A DNA stretch of 60,342 nucleotides from Tildeniella nuda ZEHNDER 1965/U140 (GTDB taxonomy: Bacteria; Cyanobacteriota; Cyanobacteriia; Leptolyngbyales; Leptolyngbyaceae), in contig JAHHIG010000026.1 of NCBI GenBank assembly GCA_019358895.1, positions 1 through 60,342 on the forward strand, read 5' to 3'. Position 1 is the first letter of the stretch. Each line of letters starts with the position of its first letter. Of this stretch, positions 33,719 to 56,966 are shown piece after piece. Below the pieces are notes generated by a model. The model saw nothing but the letters and a program-made list of their open reading frames with translations. It was not told the DNA's origin and searched no databases. The translations under genes were made by a program, and so were the position numbers.

Positions 33719-33966
33719 TCAAGAGCGAAGGGAGGCATTGTAATGATGCACAAAGTACCAAATCGCGCCAATATATGGCTCAATTTTTTCGAGAACGATA
33801 AGGTTTTACGAACCAAGCGTCCGACTTGCGGCAGCAATGTGTTGTTAAACCGTTCAATATAGCTGGTTTTACCCGTTTCTTTGCCCACCGCTCAATGGCG
33901 CTTGCTCGGTAGCACCTGTTCATCTGTCTCCCAAAAATCGGTGTAGCAGATCGCGCACTGGCGGTA
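33719..33966 (-). pseudogene. IS1-family transposase remnant (InsB C-terminus)
   Basis: On the minus strand YTDFWETDEQVLPSKRH is followed by a TGA (33892-33894), then by AVGKETGKTSYIERFNNTL, PQVGRLVRKTLSFSKKL, and after a frameshift at about 33765 by GAIWYFVHHYNASL. This is the last third of an IS1 InsB-type transposase with one nonsense codon and one frameshift. Its upstream edge meets the 84-bp tandem array directly. It differs from the intact IS1 element at 27 kb. Confidence 0.82.
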
Positions 33967-34461
33967 GCTCGATGCTTCGAGCAAAAAGGTCGATCGTCCG
34001 AGTTCAAAACTGCAACGTTGGAGCAAAAAGCTCGATCGTCCGAGTAAAAAGCTCGGTGCTTCGAGCAAAAAGGTCGATCGTCCGAGTTCAGAACTGCAAC
34101 GTTGGAGCAGAAAGCTCGATCGTCCGAGTAAAAAGCTCGATGCTTCGAGCAAAAAGGTCGATCGTCCGAGTTCAGAACTGCAACGTTGGAGCAAAAAGCT
34201 CGATCGTCCGAGTAAAAAGCTCGGCGTTTCGAGTAAAAAGGTCGGCGTTCCGAGTTCAGAACTGCAACGTTGGAGCAAAAAGCTCGATCGTCCGAGTAAA
34301 AAGCTCGGCGTTTCGAGTAAAAAGGTCGGCGTTCCGAGTTCAGAACTGCAACGTTGGAGCAAAAAGCTCGATCGTCCGAGTAAAAAGCTCGGTGCTTCGA
34401 GCAAAAAGGTCGATCGTCCGAGTTCAGAACTGCAATGGTGGAGTAAAAAAGTCGAATGTTG
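33967..34461. repeat. 84-bp tandem array built of four 21-bp subunits
   Basis: The word CAACGTTG recurs at 34013, 34097, 34181, 34265 and 34349, exactly 84 bp apart, with a sixth variant at 34433. Each 84-bp unit contains four related 21-bp blocks that begin GAG(C/T) and carry AAAAAGCTCG or AAAAAGGTCG, the fourth block being GAGTTCAGAACTGC-like. Because 21 and 84 are multiples of three, long frames remain open on both strands; neither has a supported start or homologue. About six units are present. Confidence 0.93.
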
Positions 34462-34771: not shown

Positions 34772-37558
34772 ATGACAGCCACACCTGCAAGCCTGCAAAA
34801 ATTTGTTCAATACTGCCAGCAGCATCTTAAAGGCGATGAGAAAGGTGAGTCGCAGAACTTTCTCGATCGCTTCTTTCAGGCGTTTGGGCATGAAGGCGTG
34901 AAGGAAGCAGGGGCAACGCTGGAGCAACGGGTAAAAAAGGGCAGCAAAAAGGGCAACACGGGCTTTGCGGATCTGGCATGGCAGCCTCATTTGCTGATTG
35001 AGATGAAGAAGCGGGGCGAAGACCTCAACAAGCACTACGCGCAAGCCGTCACCTATTGGATGCAGTTGCAGTGCCCCAGCTATGTGATGCTGTGCAACTT
35101 TGATGAGTTCTGGATCTACGACTTTCGCAAGCAGTCTGAAGAGCCGATCGAGAAGATTCCCCTGGAACGATTGCCCGATCGCATGGGTGCGTTCACGTTC
35201 ATGAATCCAGAGTTGGATCGTGCGCCCGTCTTCAACAACAATCTGGTATCGGTGACGGAGAAGGCGGCGGGACGGATGGGCGAATTGCTGACGATGCTCA
35301 CTAAGCGATCGCGGGAGGCGATCGATCCCAAAACGGCACAGCGGTTTGTGCTGCAATGCGTGCTGGCAATGTTTGCGGAAGACCGAGATTTATTGCCCAA
35401 AGACCTCTTCATTAGCCTGGTGCGCGAGTGTTTAGACCGGACTCGCCAGGGCAAACCCTCGAACACCTACGACATTCTGGGCAACCTGTTTCAGGAGATG
35501 AACCGACCCGGCAAAACTCCCGCAGGACGCTATCAGGGGGTGGACTACTTCAACGGTGGCTTGTTTCGAGAGGTGCAGCCGTTGGAGCTAACCGAGAAAG
35601 AACTGTCACTGCTGGAAGCCGCTGCATCACAAGACTGGAAAGCGGTGCGTCCGTCCATCTTTGGCAACATCTTTGAGTCGGCGATCGGCAAAAGCAACAG
35701 CACCGAACGTCACGCCCACGGCATTCATTTCACCTCAGAAGAAGACATTCTCAAGATCGTCCGTCCCACCATCACGCGCTATTGGGAAGCAAAGATCGCC
35801 AATGCCACTATTTTGGCGGAACTTTACGCACTGCAAGCGGAGATCCGCGACTACACAGTGCTTGATCCTGCCTGTGGGTCGGGCAACTTCCTTTACATGG
35901 CGTATCTTGAACTCAAACGACTGGAACGCGTCCTGCAAGACAAGATCGATGCCCGTCGCACCTCGGAACGGGGACAGGGACAGATGAGCATTGGCTTTGT
36001 CACCCCGCAGCAGTTCTACGGCATGGACACGAATGAATTTGCAGTAGAGTTGGCACGCGTGACGCTGATGATTGCCCGCAAAGTGGCGATCGACCTGTGC
36101 GATATTCACGACCAGTCTCCGCTACCGTTAGATACGCTCGATGAAAATATCGTCTGCAAAGATGCACTGTTTACCGAGTGGGTGAAGGCAGACGCGATTA
36201 TCGGCAATCCACCATTCTTGGGTGGAAAGCATCTGCGGATGAATCTCAGCGATGAGTACATCGATCGTGTCTTTAACCGCTTCCCTGATGTCAAGGACTC
36301 GGTTGATTTTTGTGCCTATTGGTTTCGACTGGCGCATGAACAGATTGGCGTAACTAAAGGTAGAGCAGGATTAGTTGGAACCAACTCAATTAGTCAAGGT
36401 AAAAGCAGAACTGCTGCACTGGATTACATCACACAGAATCATGGCTACATTCATGATGCAATTTCTACGCAGGTCTGGTCTGGTGGGTCAAAAGAAGATA
36501 GAGCAAACGTCCACGTCAGCATTGTCAATTGGAGCCGAGAAGAACCGAAGCAACACTTTCTCGATCAGATAGAAGTTGCACGTATTAGTTCCTCACTTCG
36601 AGCCGCTACTGATGTTTCCCAAGCCGTTCGTCTCAAAGTCAATCTCAATCAGTGCTTTCAGGGTGTGATCCCACTCGGCATGGGTTTTTTAGTTGACGAG
36701 CAACAGACCATTCAATGGATTAAAGCTGATGCCAAAAATGCAAACGTTCTAAAACTATTTTCAATGGGAGAAAATTTAGCTCAAAACATAAATGGAGAAC
36801 CTGTGAGATGGGTTATTGATTTCGGCGATATGTCAGTTGAAGATGCGAGTGATTATCGCTTACCGTTTGAGCATCTTAAAAAAACTGTCAAGCCTGAGCG
36901 CGACAAAAATCGTCGTGAAACTCGACGAGTCAATTGGTGGAAACATGGAGAAAATGCTCCCAAGATGCGAAAAGCATTAGCCTCAATTGACTACTGTTTT
37001 GCGGTGCCCAGAGTCTCTAAATGGGCAGTTTTCATTCCTTTCCCATCTAATTGGTTGGCTGGTGATAAATCAGTAGTTGTTGCTTCAGATGATTTCTACG
37101 TTTTCGGTGTCCTCACATCCAACGTCCATCGCACCTGGATGCACGCCCAAAAATCTACTCTTGAAGATCGCACCGCCTACACTCACAACACCTGCTTTGA
37201 AACCTTTCCCTTTCCCCAACTAAAAGATCCCCGACATCTTCAAGATGTCGGGGATCTGGGCGATACCGGGAATCTACTAACAACCGCGATCGTCAAGCAA
37301 ATCCGCGCCACCGCCCAAGACCTCCACGCCTACCGCTCCACCCAAATGGAGAAAAAACAGTGGGGCATCACTAAGCTCTACAACGAATACTTCCACGAAC
37401 CCACCAGCCAACTCTTCAAGCTCCACGCCAAACTCGATGCCCTTGTCCTACAGGCATACGGCTTCCACTCAGACGATGACCTCCTCGAAAAACTACTGGC
37501 GTTAAACTTAGAATTAGCAGAAAAAGAGAAAATGGGAGAGGCGATCGTTGGTCCCTAG
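34772..37558 (+). CDS. Single-chain restriction-modification enzyme (MmeI-like, type IIG/IIL)
   Basis: The 928-residue protein combines nuclease, methyltransferase and target recognition. The N-terminus has D67 (FADLAW) and E77-M-K79 (LLIEMKKR), the D-X9-EXK spacing described for MmeI. A helical spacer leads to the N6-adenine methyltransferase with motif I DPACGSGNF (365-373) and motif IV NPPF (479-482). The target-recognition part includes FAVPRVSKWAVFIPFP, VFGVLTSNVHRTW and NTCFETFPFP; a helical tail follows. All catalytic motifs look intact. A REP palindrome lies in frame at residues about 818-829 (KDPRHLQDVGDL). No separate specificity or methylase gene is needed in this class. Confidence 0.9.
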   Translation: MTATPASLQKFVQYCQQHLKGDEKGESQNFLDRFFQAFGHEGVKEAGATLEQRVKKGSKKGNTGFADLAWQPHLLIEMKKRGEDLNKHYAQAVTYWMQLQCPSYVMLCNFDEFWIYDFRKQSEEPIEKIPLERLPDRMGAFTFMNPELDRAPVFNNNLVSVTEKAAGRMGELLTMLTKRSREAIDPKTAQRFVLQCVLAMFAEDRDLLPKDLFISLVRECLDRTRQGKPSNTYDILGNLFQEMNRPGKTPAGRYQGVDYFNGGLFREVQPLELTEKELSLLEAAASQDWKAVRPSIFGNIFESAIGKSNSTERHAHGIHFTSEEDILKIVRPTITRYWEAKIANATILAELYALQAEIRDYTVLDPACGSGNFLYMAYLELKRLERVLQDKIDARRTSERGQGQMSIGFVTPQQFYGMDTNEFAVELARVTLMIARKVAIDLCDIHDQSPLPLDTLDENIVCKDALFTEWVKADAIIGNPPFLGGKHLRMNLSDEYIDRVFNRFPDVKDSVDFCAYWFRLAHEQIGVTKGRAGLVGTNSISQGKSRTAALDYITQNHGYIHDAISTQVWSGGSKEDRANVHVSIVNWSREEPKQHFLDQIEVARISSSLRAATDVSQAVRLKVNLNQCFQGVIPLGMGFLVDEQQTIQWIKADAKNANVLKLFSMGENLAQNINGEPVRWVIDFGDMSVEDASDYRLPFEHLKKTVKPERDKNRRETRRVNWWKHGENAPKMRKALASIDYCFAVPRVSKWAVFIPFPSNWLAGDKSVVVASDDFYVFGVLTSNVHRTWMHAQKSTLEDRTAYTHNTCFETFPFPQLKDPRHLQDVGDLGDTGNLLTTAIVKQIRATAQDLHAYRSTQMEKKQWGITKLYNEYFHEPTSQLFKLHAKLDALVLQAYGFHSDDDLLEKLLALNLELAEKEKMGEAIVGP
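37225..37257. repeat. REP palindrome inside the restriction enzyme gene (compact form)
   Basis: AGATCCCCGACATCTT and its exact complement are separated by one base. It matches the palindromes flanking the RAYT gene a few hundred bases downstream. It is 33 bp long, so it keeps the frame and adds about eleven residues (DPRHLQDVGDL) between the target-recognition region and the C-terminal tail. Confidence 0.9.
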
Positions 37559-37574
37559 GCACCGCAAACACCTT

Positions 37575-37608
37575 AGATCCCCGACTTCTTTAAAGAAGTC
37601 GGGGATCT
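37575..37608. repeat. REP palindrome between convergent genes (compact form); possible terminator
   Basis: AGATCCCCGACTTCTT, two bases, then its exact complement. It fills the gap between the stop of the restriction enzyme and the stop of the RAYT gene, where a strong hairpin could end transcription from both sides. Confidence 0.9.
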
Positions 37609-37611
37609 AGA

Positions 37612-38184
37612 TCACTCATCTAACATCAGCGATCGCACACTTGCTTCTTGAGGCAACAACTGATCTTCCAAAAACATTTGATAGGCATCTGTCGCACCTG
37701 TTAGCATCTGCACCCGTGCCAATGTTGGTAACGTGCCCTGCCGCAGCCCTGCATATTCCCGATAACTTGAAAACTCCCACTCACTTGAATGCCTCACCAA
37801 CCCAGCCTTAACCGGGTTCAAGTGAATGTAGCGCGTCAAATGCACCAAATACATCTCGCAATCGACCTGAATCGAGCAAAAACGTCCCTGAAATAAAGAG
37901 CCGACCCGGTTGTAGCGAGCATTCATTCCTTTGGTATACGCCAGAGATAGCGCCTTCATCTGTGCGCTCAAACTACCAGCCTGAAACTGCACCAGTAGAT
38001 GGTAATGGTTTGGCATCAGGCAGTACGCTAAGATTTCTACCGTCTCAGGTGCCAAATATTGCCGTACTAACCGCAGGAAATGCAGGTAATTTTCACGCTC
38101 AAAGAAGATATTTTGGCGGTTATTGCCCCGATTGTATAAATGATAAACATTGCCAGTTTCAAAGGCGATCGTGCGATATGGCAT
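37612..38184 (-). CDS. REP-associated tyrosine transposase (RAYT, Y1 HUH family)
   Basis: The 190-residue protein has YHLYNRGNNRQNIFFERENY at the N-terminus, the HUH pair H60-Y61-H62 in MPNHYHLLVQ, GSLFQGRF, and the conserved RYIHLNPVKAGLV with the probable catalytic Tyr119. These are RAYT hallmarks; RAYTs are domesticated IS200/IS605-like enzymes that cut and move REP hairpins. REP palindromes lie on both sides, 3 bp after its stop and 46 bp before its start. Length and motifs are intact. Confidence 0.93.
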   Translation of the reverse strand: MPYRTIAFETGNVYHLYNRGNNRQNIFFERENYLHFLRLVRQYLAPETVEILAYCLMPNHYHLLVQFQAGSLSAQMKALSLAYTKGMNARYNRVGSLFQGRFCSIQVDCEMYLVHLTRYIHLNPVKAGLVRHSSEWEFSSYREYAGLRQGTLPTLARVQMLTGATDAYQMFLEDQLLPQEASVRSLMLDE

Positions 38185-38230
38185 GAGGGAGTTTGAAAGC
38201 AGATAAGCTTAGGTTTCCCAAGTTGCTTAC

Positions 38231-38263
38231 AGATCCCCGACTTTTTGAAAAAGTCGGGGATCT
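38231..38263. repeat. REP palindrome upstream of the RAYT gene (compact form)
   Basis: AGATCCCCGACTTTTT, one base, then its exact complement. It is followed by TGGGC, as is the copy in the restriction enzyme gene. Confidence 0.9.
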
Positions 38264-38279
38264 GGGCATCCAACCGCTA

Positions 38280-38417
38280 CTGCCCTCGTCCTCCAGGCAT
38301 ACGGCTTCACCCTGGGGAAACATTGCAGAAGCGGAGAACCGTGTACTTAGAGTCATCACTCTGGAAGATGGCGTAACCGTCCATAACGCCTTTTTTGACC
38401 GTAATTTCTACAAATGA
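38280..38417 (+). pseudogene. Chimeric remnant: tail fragment of the restriction enzyme joined to a DUF4258 C-terminus
   Basis: The first about 30 bp (TGCCCTCGTCCTCCAGGC...) nearly match the 3' part of the restriction enzyme gene that encodes ALVLQAYGF. After an unrelated joint, the frame VLRVITLEDGVTVHNAFFDR matches the last third of DUF4258 proteins. DUF4258 genes commonly precede DUF2283 genes, and a DUF2283 gene follows here after 23 bp. The N-terminal two-thirds of the DUF4258 protein are missing. Confidence 0.65.
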
Positions 38418-56901: not shown

Positions 56902-56966
56902 AGATCCCCGACTTCTTTGTTCAGCCCTGATTGCTTGACTAAACCTGATTCAGAAGTCGGGGATCT
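56902..56966. repeat. REP palindrome, extended form, just after ilvD
   Basis: AGATCCCCGACTTCT and its exact complement AGAAGTCGGGGATCT are separated by 35 bp. Arm sequence is that of the RAYT-associated palindromes. It is eight bases after the ilvD stop and may also terminate that transcript. Confidence 0.88.

Follow-up and report, generated by a model that had tools for sequence, protein, structure and literature searches.

A RAYT gene with a palindrome on either side raises the question of whether the enzyme and the palindromes belong together and, if they do, what kind of RAYT system they form. The gene lies in a stretch of 60,342 nucleotides from Tildeniella nuda, here called the window, and a preliminary description of this DNA had read the layout as a REPtron. 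The two flanking palindromes, 33-34 bp long and built as AGATCCCCGACTTCTT(N)AAGAAGTCGGGGATCT, are found at the distances from the stop and start codons given in that description (Table 1), and the HUH motif (NHYH) and the tyrosine motif RYIHLNP are both present in the open reading frame between them. The two further copies that it mentioned are also there, one inside the restriction enzyme gene, an MmeI-like open reading frame of 928 residues, and one after ilvD (TIGR00110, 789.8 bits), but the copies are not identical, and the one after ilvD is of a longer, 65-bp form.

Table 1. The RAYT unit, its palindromes and neighbouring features, in positions of the window.
Feature	Position	Strand	Description
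MmeI-like restriction-modification gene	34772..37558	(+)	PF20473, PF20464, PF20465, PF20466
Palindrome inside MmeI-like gene	37225..37257	none	33 bp, in frame
Palindrome downstream of RAYT	37575..37608	none	34 bp, 3 bp past stop codon
RAYT (Y1 HUH enzyme)	37612..38184	(-)	190 aa, stop codon included in coordinates
Leader box GGGAAACCTAAG (consensus GGGAANYCTARR)	38208..38219	(-)	exact match, 23 nt before RAYT start codon
Palindrome upstream of RAYT	38231..38263	none	33 bp, 46 bp before start codon
65-bp form after ilvD	56902..56966	none	two arms, 33-nt spacer

The window contains 8 matches to the 16-mer arm with at most 3 mismatches, as compared to 0.39 expected from dinucleotide shuffles. The copy at 37225 reads AGATCCCCGACATCTT and the one at 38231 AGATCCCCGACTTTTT, and in both the change in one arm is mirrored by a matching change in the second; such compensating changes are missing in some copies outside the window, for instance at L001 and L006. 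The three short window copies are predicted to fold as single-stranded DNA with -16.0 to -16.7 kcal/mol (z about -8). All the window palindromes start with AGAT; the GT[AG]G foot of the GTAG REPtron is not present in them, and a search for GGGGWSAS, the consensus of TIRYTs (subclass 2.1), gave no match there either. The genome-wide count proposed in the preliminary description gave 81 + 74 = 155 arm matches with at most 2 mismatches in the 6.08-Mb genome, and 2 + 1 = 3 for the reversed control.

The window protein matches the profile PF01797 (Y1_Tnp) with an E value of 2.9e-12, and its score against NF047646 (NCBIfam REP_Tyr_transpos), 80.6 bits, is just above the cut-off of 80. The residues H60, H62 and Y119 show no variation across 36 aligned sequences, and the AlphaFold model (pLDDT 84.8) has TnpAREP (4er8) as its best structural match, with an E value of 3.6e-8. 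A Y1_Tnp core with HUH and Y...NP motifs, a low copy number and the conservation of a kept gene, the traits of the RAYT / TnpAREP family, are all found here. The source genome has four Y1_Tnp genes: a short IS200-like gene, the window RAYT and two GTAG-flanked RAYTs (L033 on contig C30 and L034 on contig C8) with flanking inverted repeats GTAGGTTGGGTTGA and GTAGGATGGGC. Judged by their sequence, the flanks of these two resemble ordinary GTAG REPtrons, and L034 additionally carries a 63-bp tandem repeat. The first 11 letters of the window arm, with at most 1 mismatch, were not found at any of the three other Y1_Tnp loci.

Searching 388 genomes of the class gave 134 with a match to the window RAYT at E 1e-5 or better, and in the list of matches the identity drops from about 50% or more, which is one clade, to about 30%, which are other RAYTs. 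Seventy loci were examined; L092 and L094 were dropped and five had short flanks, which left 63. With an element defined as inverted 15-nt arms with at most 2 mismatches and a loop of up to 46, elements were found upstream in 58 of the 63 loci and downstream in 51; 48 loci were flanked on both sides, though in up to five of these 48 (L042, L050, L083, L097 and L104) the top match on one side is unrelated. Control windows 750-1000 bp away had any element in 8 of 124 cases, two or three of them from the same palindrome families. In a second, overlapping set of 80 named loci the flanks were complete at 73, of which 68 had an element upstream, 66 downstream and 61 on both sides (control 8 of 138). 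This set includes L210, L213 and L232, Chloroflexi or Anaerolineae records with elements on at least one side; they are possibly misplaced contigs, since they come from metagenome bins. The build is common to the lineages, 33 or about 65 nt with AG...CT ends, while the palindrome sequence varies: the arm types include A AGATCCCCGACTTCT, B AGACCTCCGAGGTTT, C AGATCCCAGGGTTCT, D AGATCTGCGACTTCT, E AGAAACCSGGTTTCT and F AGGGGTCAGGTGCCT. Loop lengths peak at 3-5 nt and at about 33-37 nt, and arrays of type E show other values. At L055, L056, L057, L067 and L068 the type C palindrome beside the RAYT leads into a spacer that contains another small dyad, near GCAAGCATTTTGC, and L068 has one additional palindrome-spacer unit in an otherwise aligned leader.

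The dispersed copies were viewed at 23 places, where 13 were 33-34 bp and 10 were 61-67 bp long, a ratio that is no genome-wide estimate because the loci were fetched by exact arm matches. The element border is sharp at AG, with the A in 45 and the G in 45 of the 46 ends. The bases outside it are mixed, and a C or T stands next to the border at 35 of the 46 ends, which may reflect a weak target preference. None of the 23 copies is flanked by a target duplication of at least 2 nt. An intrinsic terminator was considered and rejected, as the T run was absent behind all 23 elements. Another idea, that the arms are themselves mini-hairpins, is not claimed, because types A, D and M give zero excess (over 15 arm types the mean was 5.67 self-pairs out of 7, as compared to 4.56 in interior shuffles). 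The 65-bp form, dispersed and linked to a RAYT, has the layout of a REPIN, which according to Bertels and Rainey in 2011 is reportedly a small non-autonomous unit of two inverted arms and a spacer, linked to a RAYT. The arms of the clade differ from those of REPINs in being 15-16 nt long and without GTAG, and the common short form is almost spacerless. At L042, positions 139-1465, thirteen 65-bp type A elements follow each other with a period of about 105 bp beside a RAYT of genome G158.

The copy inside the MmeI-like gene is in frame at residue 819 of the protein, and the insertion is missing in all 14 distinct homologs that cover the site. The homologs are 18 or 19 residues shorter there, which exceeds the 11 codons of the palindrome itself. 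A second in-frame copy is found in the gene at L016, which we take to be NB-ARC-like. It was rejected as a second empty site: of 29 homologs, 28 are shorter at this point, but L266 is of the same length and has a similar, diverged stretch, so the site is not clean. The tested 33-mers of types A and E have no stop in any of the three frames, while one frame is interrupted by a stop in types B, C, D and G and in one variant of type E. Around the MmeI-like gene there is also a 28-nt near-duplicate (93%) of its C-terminal coding sequence, at 37438-37465 and, beyond the RAYT unit, at 38281-38308; extra MmeI C-terminal fragments occur at L106, L116 and L124 as well. At 33966-34455 about 6 copies of an 84-bp unit stand in tandem (94% matches), with both strands open.

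The palindromes bracket a gene for a protein with the Y1 transposase fold, and an arrangement like that of IS200/IS605 would be one way to explain this: the whole unit would be mobile and the dispersed palindromes would be solo ends or deletion derivatives. The occurrence of RAYTs with type B palindromes in three host families (f1, f13 and f24) suggests horizontal transfer and fits such mobility. However, clade RAYTs that share a genome are at most 67% identical in all 11 pairs, unlike recent IS copies, and several clade RAYTs hold their location between species, with flanks that can be aligned over more than 1 kb. The clade RAYT is under purifying selection, with dN/dS of 0.06-0.39 in 15 pairs (dS is near saturation in the two pairs that involve the window RAYT), and the 23 viewed copies end at AG...CT with no RAYT pieces in them. 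We find this explanation unlikely.

The upstream and downstream arms within one locus differ on average by 0.59 of 15 letters, and arms of different loci by 5.56 (41 loci, among them L042 with its unrelated upstream hairpin). The palindrome type tracks the RAYT tree (Mantel r 0.52, p 0.0001, 53 RAYTs), and p is 0.0001 also when the permutation is confined to host families. The set consisted of 53 of the 54 RAYTs of at least 150 aa and required arms that start with AG, which filtered out L074, whose arm starts with AA; L042 was represented by its downstream arm. When the AG filter is left out, AG is found in the outer 5 nt of 128 of the 141 perfect inverted elements that lie close to RAYTs of the clade, as compared to about 35 expected. 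For 48 of the 53 RAYTs the nearest RAYT has a palindrome that agrees to within 2 letters, and for 27 of 53 if it has to come from another host family; the proportion for random RAYT pairs is 0.165. Paralogs in the same genome have palindromes at least 4 letters apart in 9 of 11 pairs and 2 letters apart in the other two, and genomes G303 and G196 each have types B, C and F together. A pairing of RAYT and palindrome that is general in the clade is strongly supported.

The preliminary description held that equal abundance of the palindrome in relatives without any RAYT, or a lack of enrichment near RAYT genes, would speak against such a pairing. The enrichment near RAYT genes is clear from the both-sided loci and control windows given above. 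Types A and B were counted in all 388 genomes, and C, D and F in the 51 genomes with a clade RAYT, with the copies at the RAYT locus itself included. Among the 51 genomes the median arm counts with and without the cognate RAYT were 113 and 1.5 for A, 36.5 and 0 for B, 53.5 and 1 for C, 35 and 1 for D, and 7 and 0 for F (p 2.1e-7 to 1.3e-4). At least 20 type A arms were counted in 11 of the 14 genomes that have a type A RAYT, and in 3 of the 38 that have other clade RAYTs. The abundance in relatives speaks in part against a strict pairing, though. Of the 336 genomes that have no clade RAYT, some of which do carry RAYT fragments, 19 also reached 20 type A arms or more, and host family f32 accounts for 13 of these 19. 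A search of the 19 genomes with an f32 RAYT gave one clear remnant, in G191 (71%, residues 152-189), and weaker remnants in G309 and G313; of the remaining ones, two had no match at E 1 and the others had at most 43% identity. Furthermore, genome G317 has 225 type C arm matches and no type C RAYT was seen in it, and the source genome itself has 43 type B arm matches and no type B RAYT. Because of these arm-rich genomes without a cognate RAYT, palindrome copies seem to outlive their RAYT, and the 19 genomes imply that copies already in place can persist without the enzyme.

The same 19 genomes could be taken to mean that the palindromes are spread by another enzyme or process, and that the RAYT unit just picks them up or takes them along, for instance as hairpins that control its expression. 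We consider this very unlikely, as the identity of the palindrome tracks the RAYT phylogeny, also with permutation within host families, and type F in G303 and G196 is mostly confined to the RAYT locus. Since type F is hardly dispersed there, the flanking palindromes are part of the unit and not just landings of an abundant repeat. A chance landing beside one RAYT gene, for which the abundance of the palindrome in the source genome might speak, is next to negligible, as the layout recurs with other palindromes at 48 of 63 loci and any element is found in 8 of 124 control windows. Probably, the window contains a REPtron-like unit that is not of the GTAG kind, in which a low-copy RAYT is bracketed by its own hairpins and non-autonomous copies of these are dispersed.

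The leader of the unit holds a conserved box, GGGAANYCTARR. In 44 of 62 clade loci it precedes the start codon by 22-28 nt, as compared to at most 2 in letter shuffles; anywhere in 75 nt, the controls gave 9 downstream, 7 downstream in reverse and 4 upstream in reverse. As the consensus was derived from the same loci, the fixed position is the stronger evidence for the box. Many type E loci are without it, and it may have a role in expression or autoregulation. A conserved RNA hairpin in the leader was rejected, as a common structure was absent in the folds of the first 14 leaders.

The preliminary description called the unit a REPtron, and its layout, the dispersed copies and the pairing are strongly supported; the repeats are not GTAG REPs, however, and in the tree the enzyme stands apart from the RAYTs with GTAG repeats in its own genome. 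The window unit shares with the GTAG REPtrons (subclasses 2.2, 2.4, 2.5, 2.7 and 2.8) the bracketing by its own palindromes, the dispersed copies and the fold, which is nearest to 4er8, and differs from them in lacking the GTAG foot and in its separate branch. In a tree of 28 proteins the RAYTs of the source genome with GTAG repeats and E. coli TnpAREP cluster at 99/98, away from the clade and its plasmid relatives; with the long branches and open forks of this tree the sister group of the clade is unsure. The residues E100, H101 and R104 by which E. coli TnpAREP contacts GTAG align with S104, I105 and D108 of the window protein. The double-foot REPs of subclass 2.4 are likewise symmetric palindromes with complementary feet, and in-frame insertions in genes are known for them according to the text of PMC6006769, but their feet are GT[AG]G and C[TC]AC, not AG and CT, and the motifs of their RAYTs differ.

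In Table 1 of PMC6006769 the motifs of the window RAYT fit none of the REP-associated rows, while NHYH, FQ, YIHLNP and the following SS are shared with TnpAY1 subclass 2.1 (NH[YF]H, FQ, Y[IV]HLNP and an SS extension), to which 20 of 26 published TIRYTs belong and which corresponds to Bertels group 1 (Quentin 2018, PMC6006769). As described in the text of that paper, these TIRYTs all have HTH tails and come without REPs or REP-like hairpins. The window protein has no HTH tail by Pfam, and the ends of the clade are closed hairpins, dispersed in many genomes. No Pfam HTH was found at E 0.05 in proteins P0001 and P0002, while in the plasmid relative L294 there is a match to Bac_DnaA_C that scores below the cut-off. 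Arms of types F and J (AGGGGTCAG and AGGGGACAG) fit the TIR consensus GGGGWSAS, and Di Nocera 2013 (PMC3733652) mentions TIRs that are self-complementary throughout as well as TIRs that make up repeat families. Relatives of the RAYT were found in 23 plasmid records and one phage record, all below 60% identity, and the sole plasmid match above 50% is a piece of 54 residues. Among the plasmid relatives, 4 of 8 have exact 13-nt terminal inverted repeats, three of these with GGGTCAGA, which is like type F arms. By motifs and tree the window enzyme appears to be closer to the TIR-type RAYTs of subclass 2.1 than to the GTAG-REP RAYTs. The window protein is a REPtron-like member of the RAYT family, and neither a GTAG REPtron nor a standard subclass 2.1 TIRYT. 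Searches of open-licence papers gave no description of this RAYT-palindrome pairing in cyanobacteria, and the palindrome strings gave nothing related by title; cyanobacterial TIRYTs are possibly listed in figures or supplements of the cited papers.

The characterised TnpAREP enzymes cut at a CT beside the hairpin, and GTAG, chiefly its last two letters, is thought to select this CT, according to the text of PMC8266576. In the clade elements just a 5' AG and a 3' CT are retained, on both strands. We infer that these form a reduced guide and cut pair, with the AG standing for the AG of GTAG and the CT for the dinucleotide at which the characterised enzymes cleave. The RAYT would bind the hairpin as single-stranded DNA, its tyrosine would cut at the terminal CT, and the enzyme would in this way move or copy the elements. 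The remainder of the stem would also be read by the enzyme, and this would account for the divergence of the stems along with the enzymes. A wider reading, to which we give about equal chances of being right and wrong, is that the clade elements form a separate REP-like superfamily, tagged with AG...CT and not GTAG, whose enzymes have no HTH and are an offshoot of the TIR-type RAYTs that occurs in Cyanobacteria and perhaps in a few Chloroflexi. The ancestor would have had single terminal repeats of the AGGGGTCAG type, each end would then have become a closed hairpin travelling alone, and about ten enzyme-hairpin specificities would since have diverged as lock-and-key pairs.

The recognition between RAYT and REP has been worked out in vitro for the GTAG repeats of proteobacteria. 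How RAYTs without GTAG choose their target, and how repeat families originate from transposon ends, are questions that the clade could help to answer. It offers about ten natural enzyme-hairpin types, two or three of them side by side in some genomes, and as its palindromes share only the terminal AG and CT, the specificity is testable by simple swaps. Several dispersed palindrome families of cyanobacterial genomes would be tied to one enzyme clade. If the reading as a separate superfamily is true, it shows a terminal inverted repeat turning into a genome-wide repeat family, and it would mean that the essential part of GTAG is the AG that matches the CT cut.
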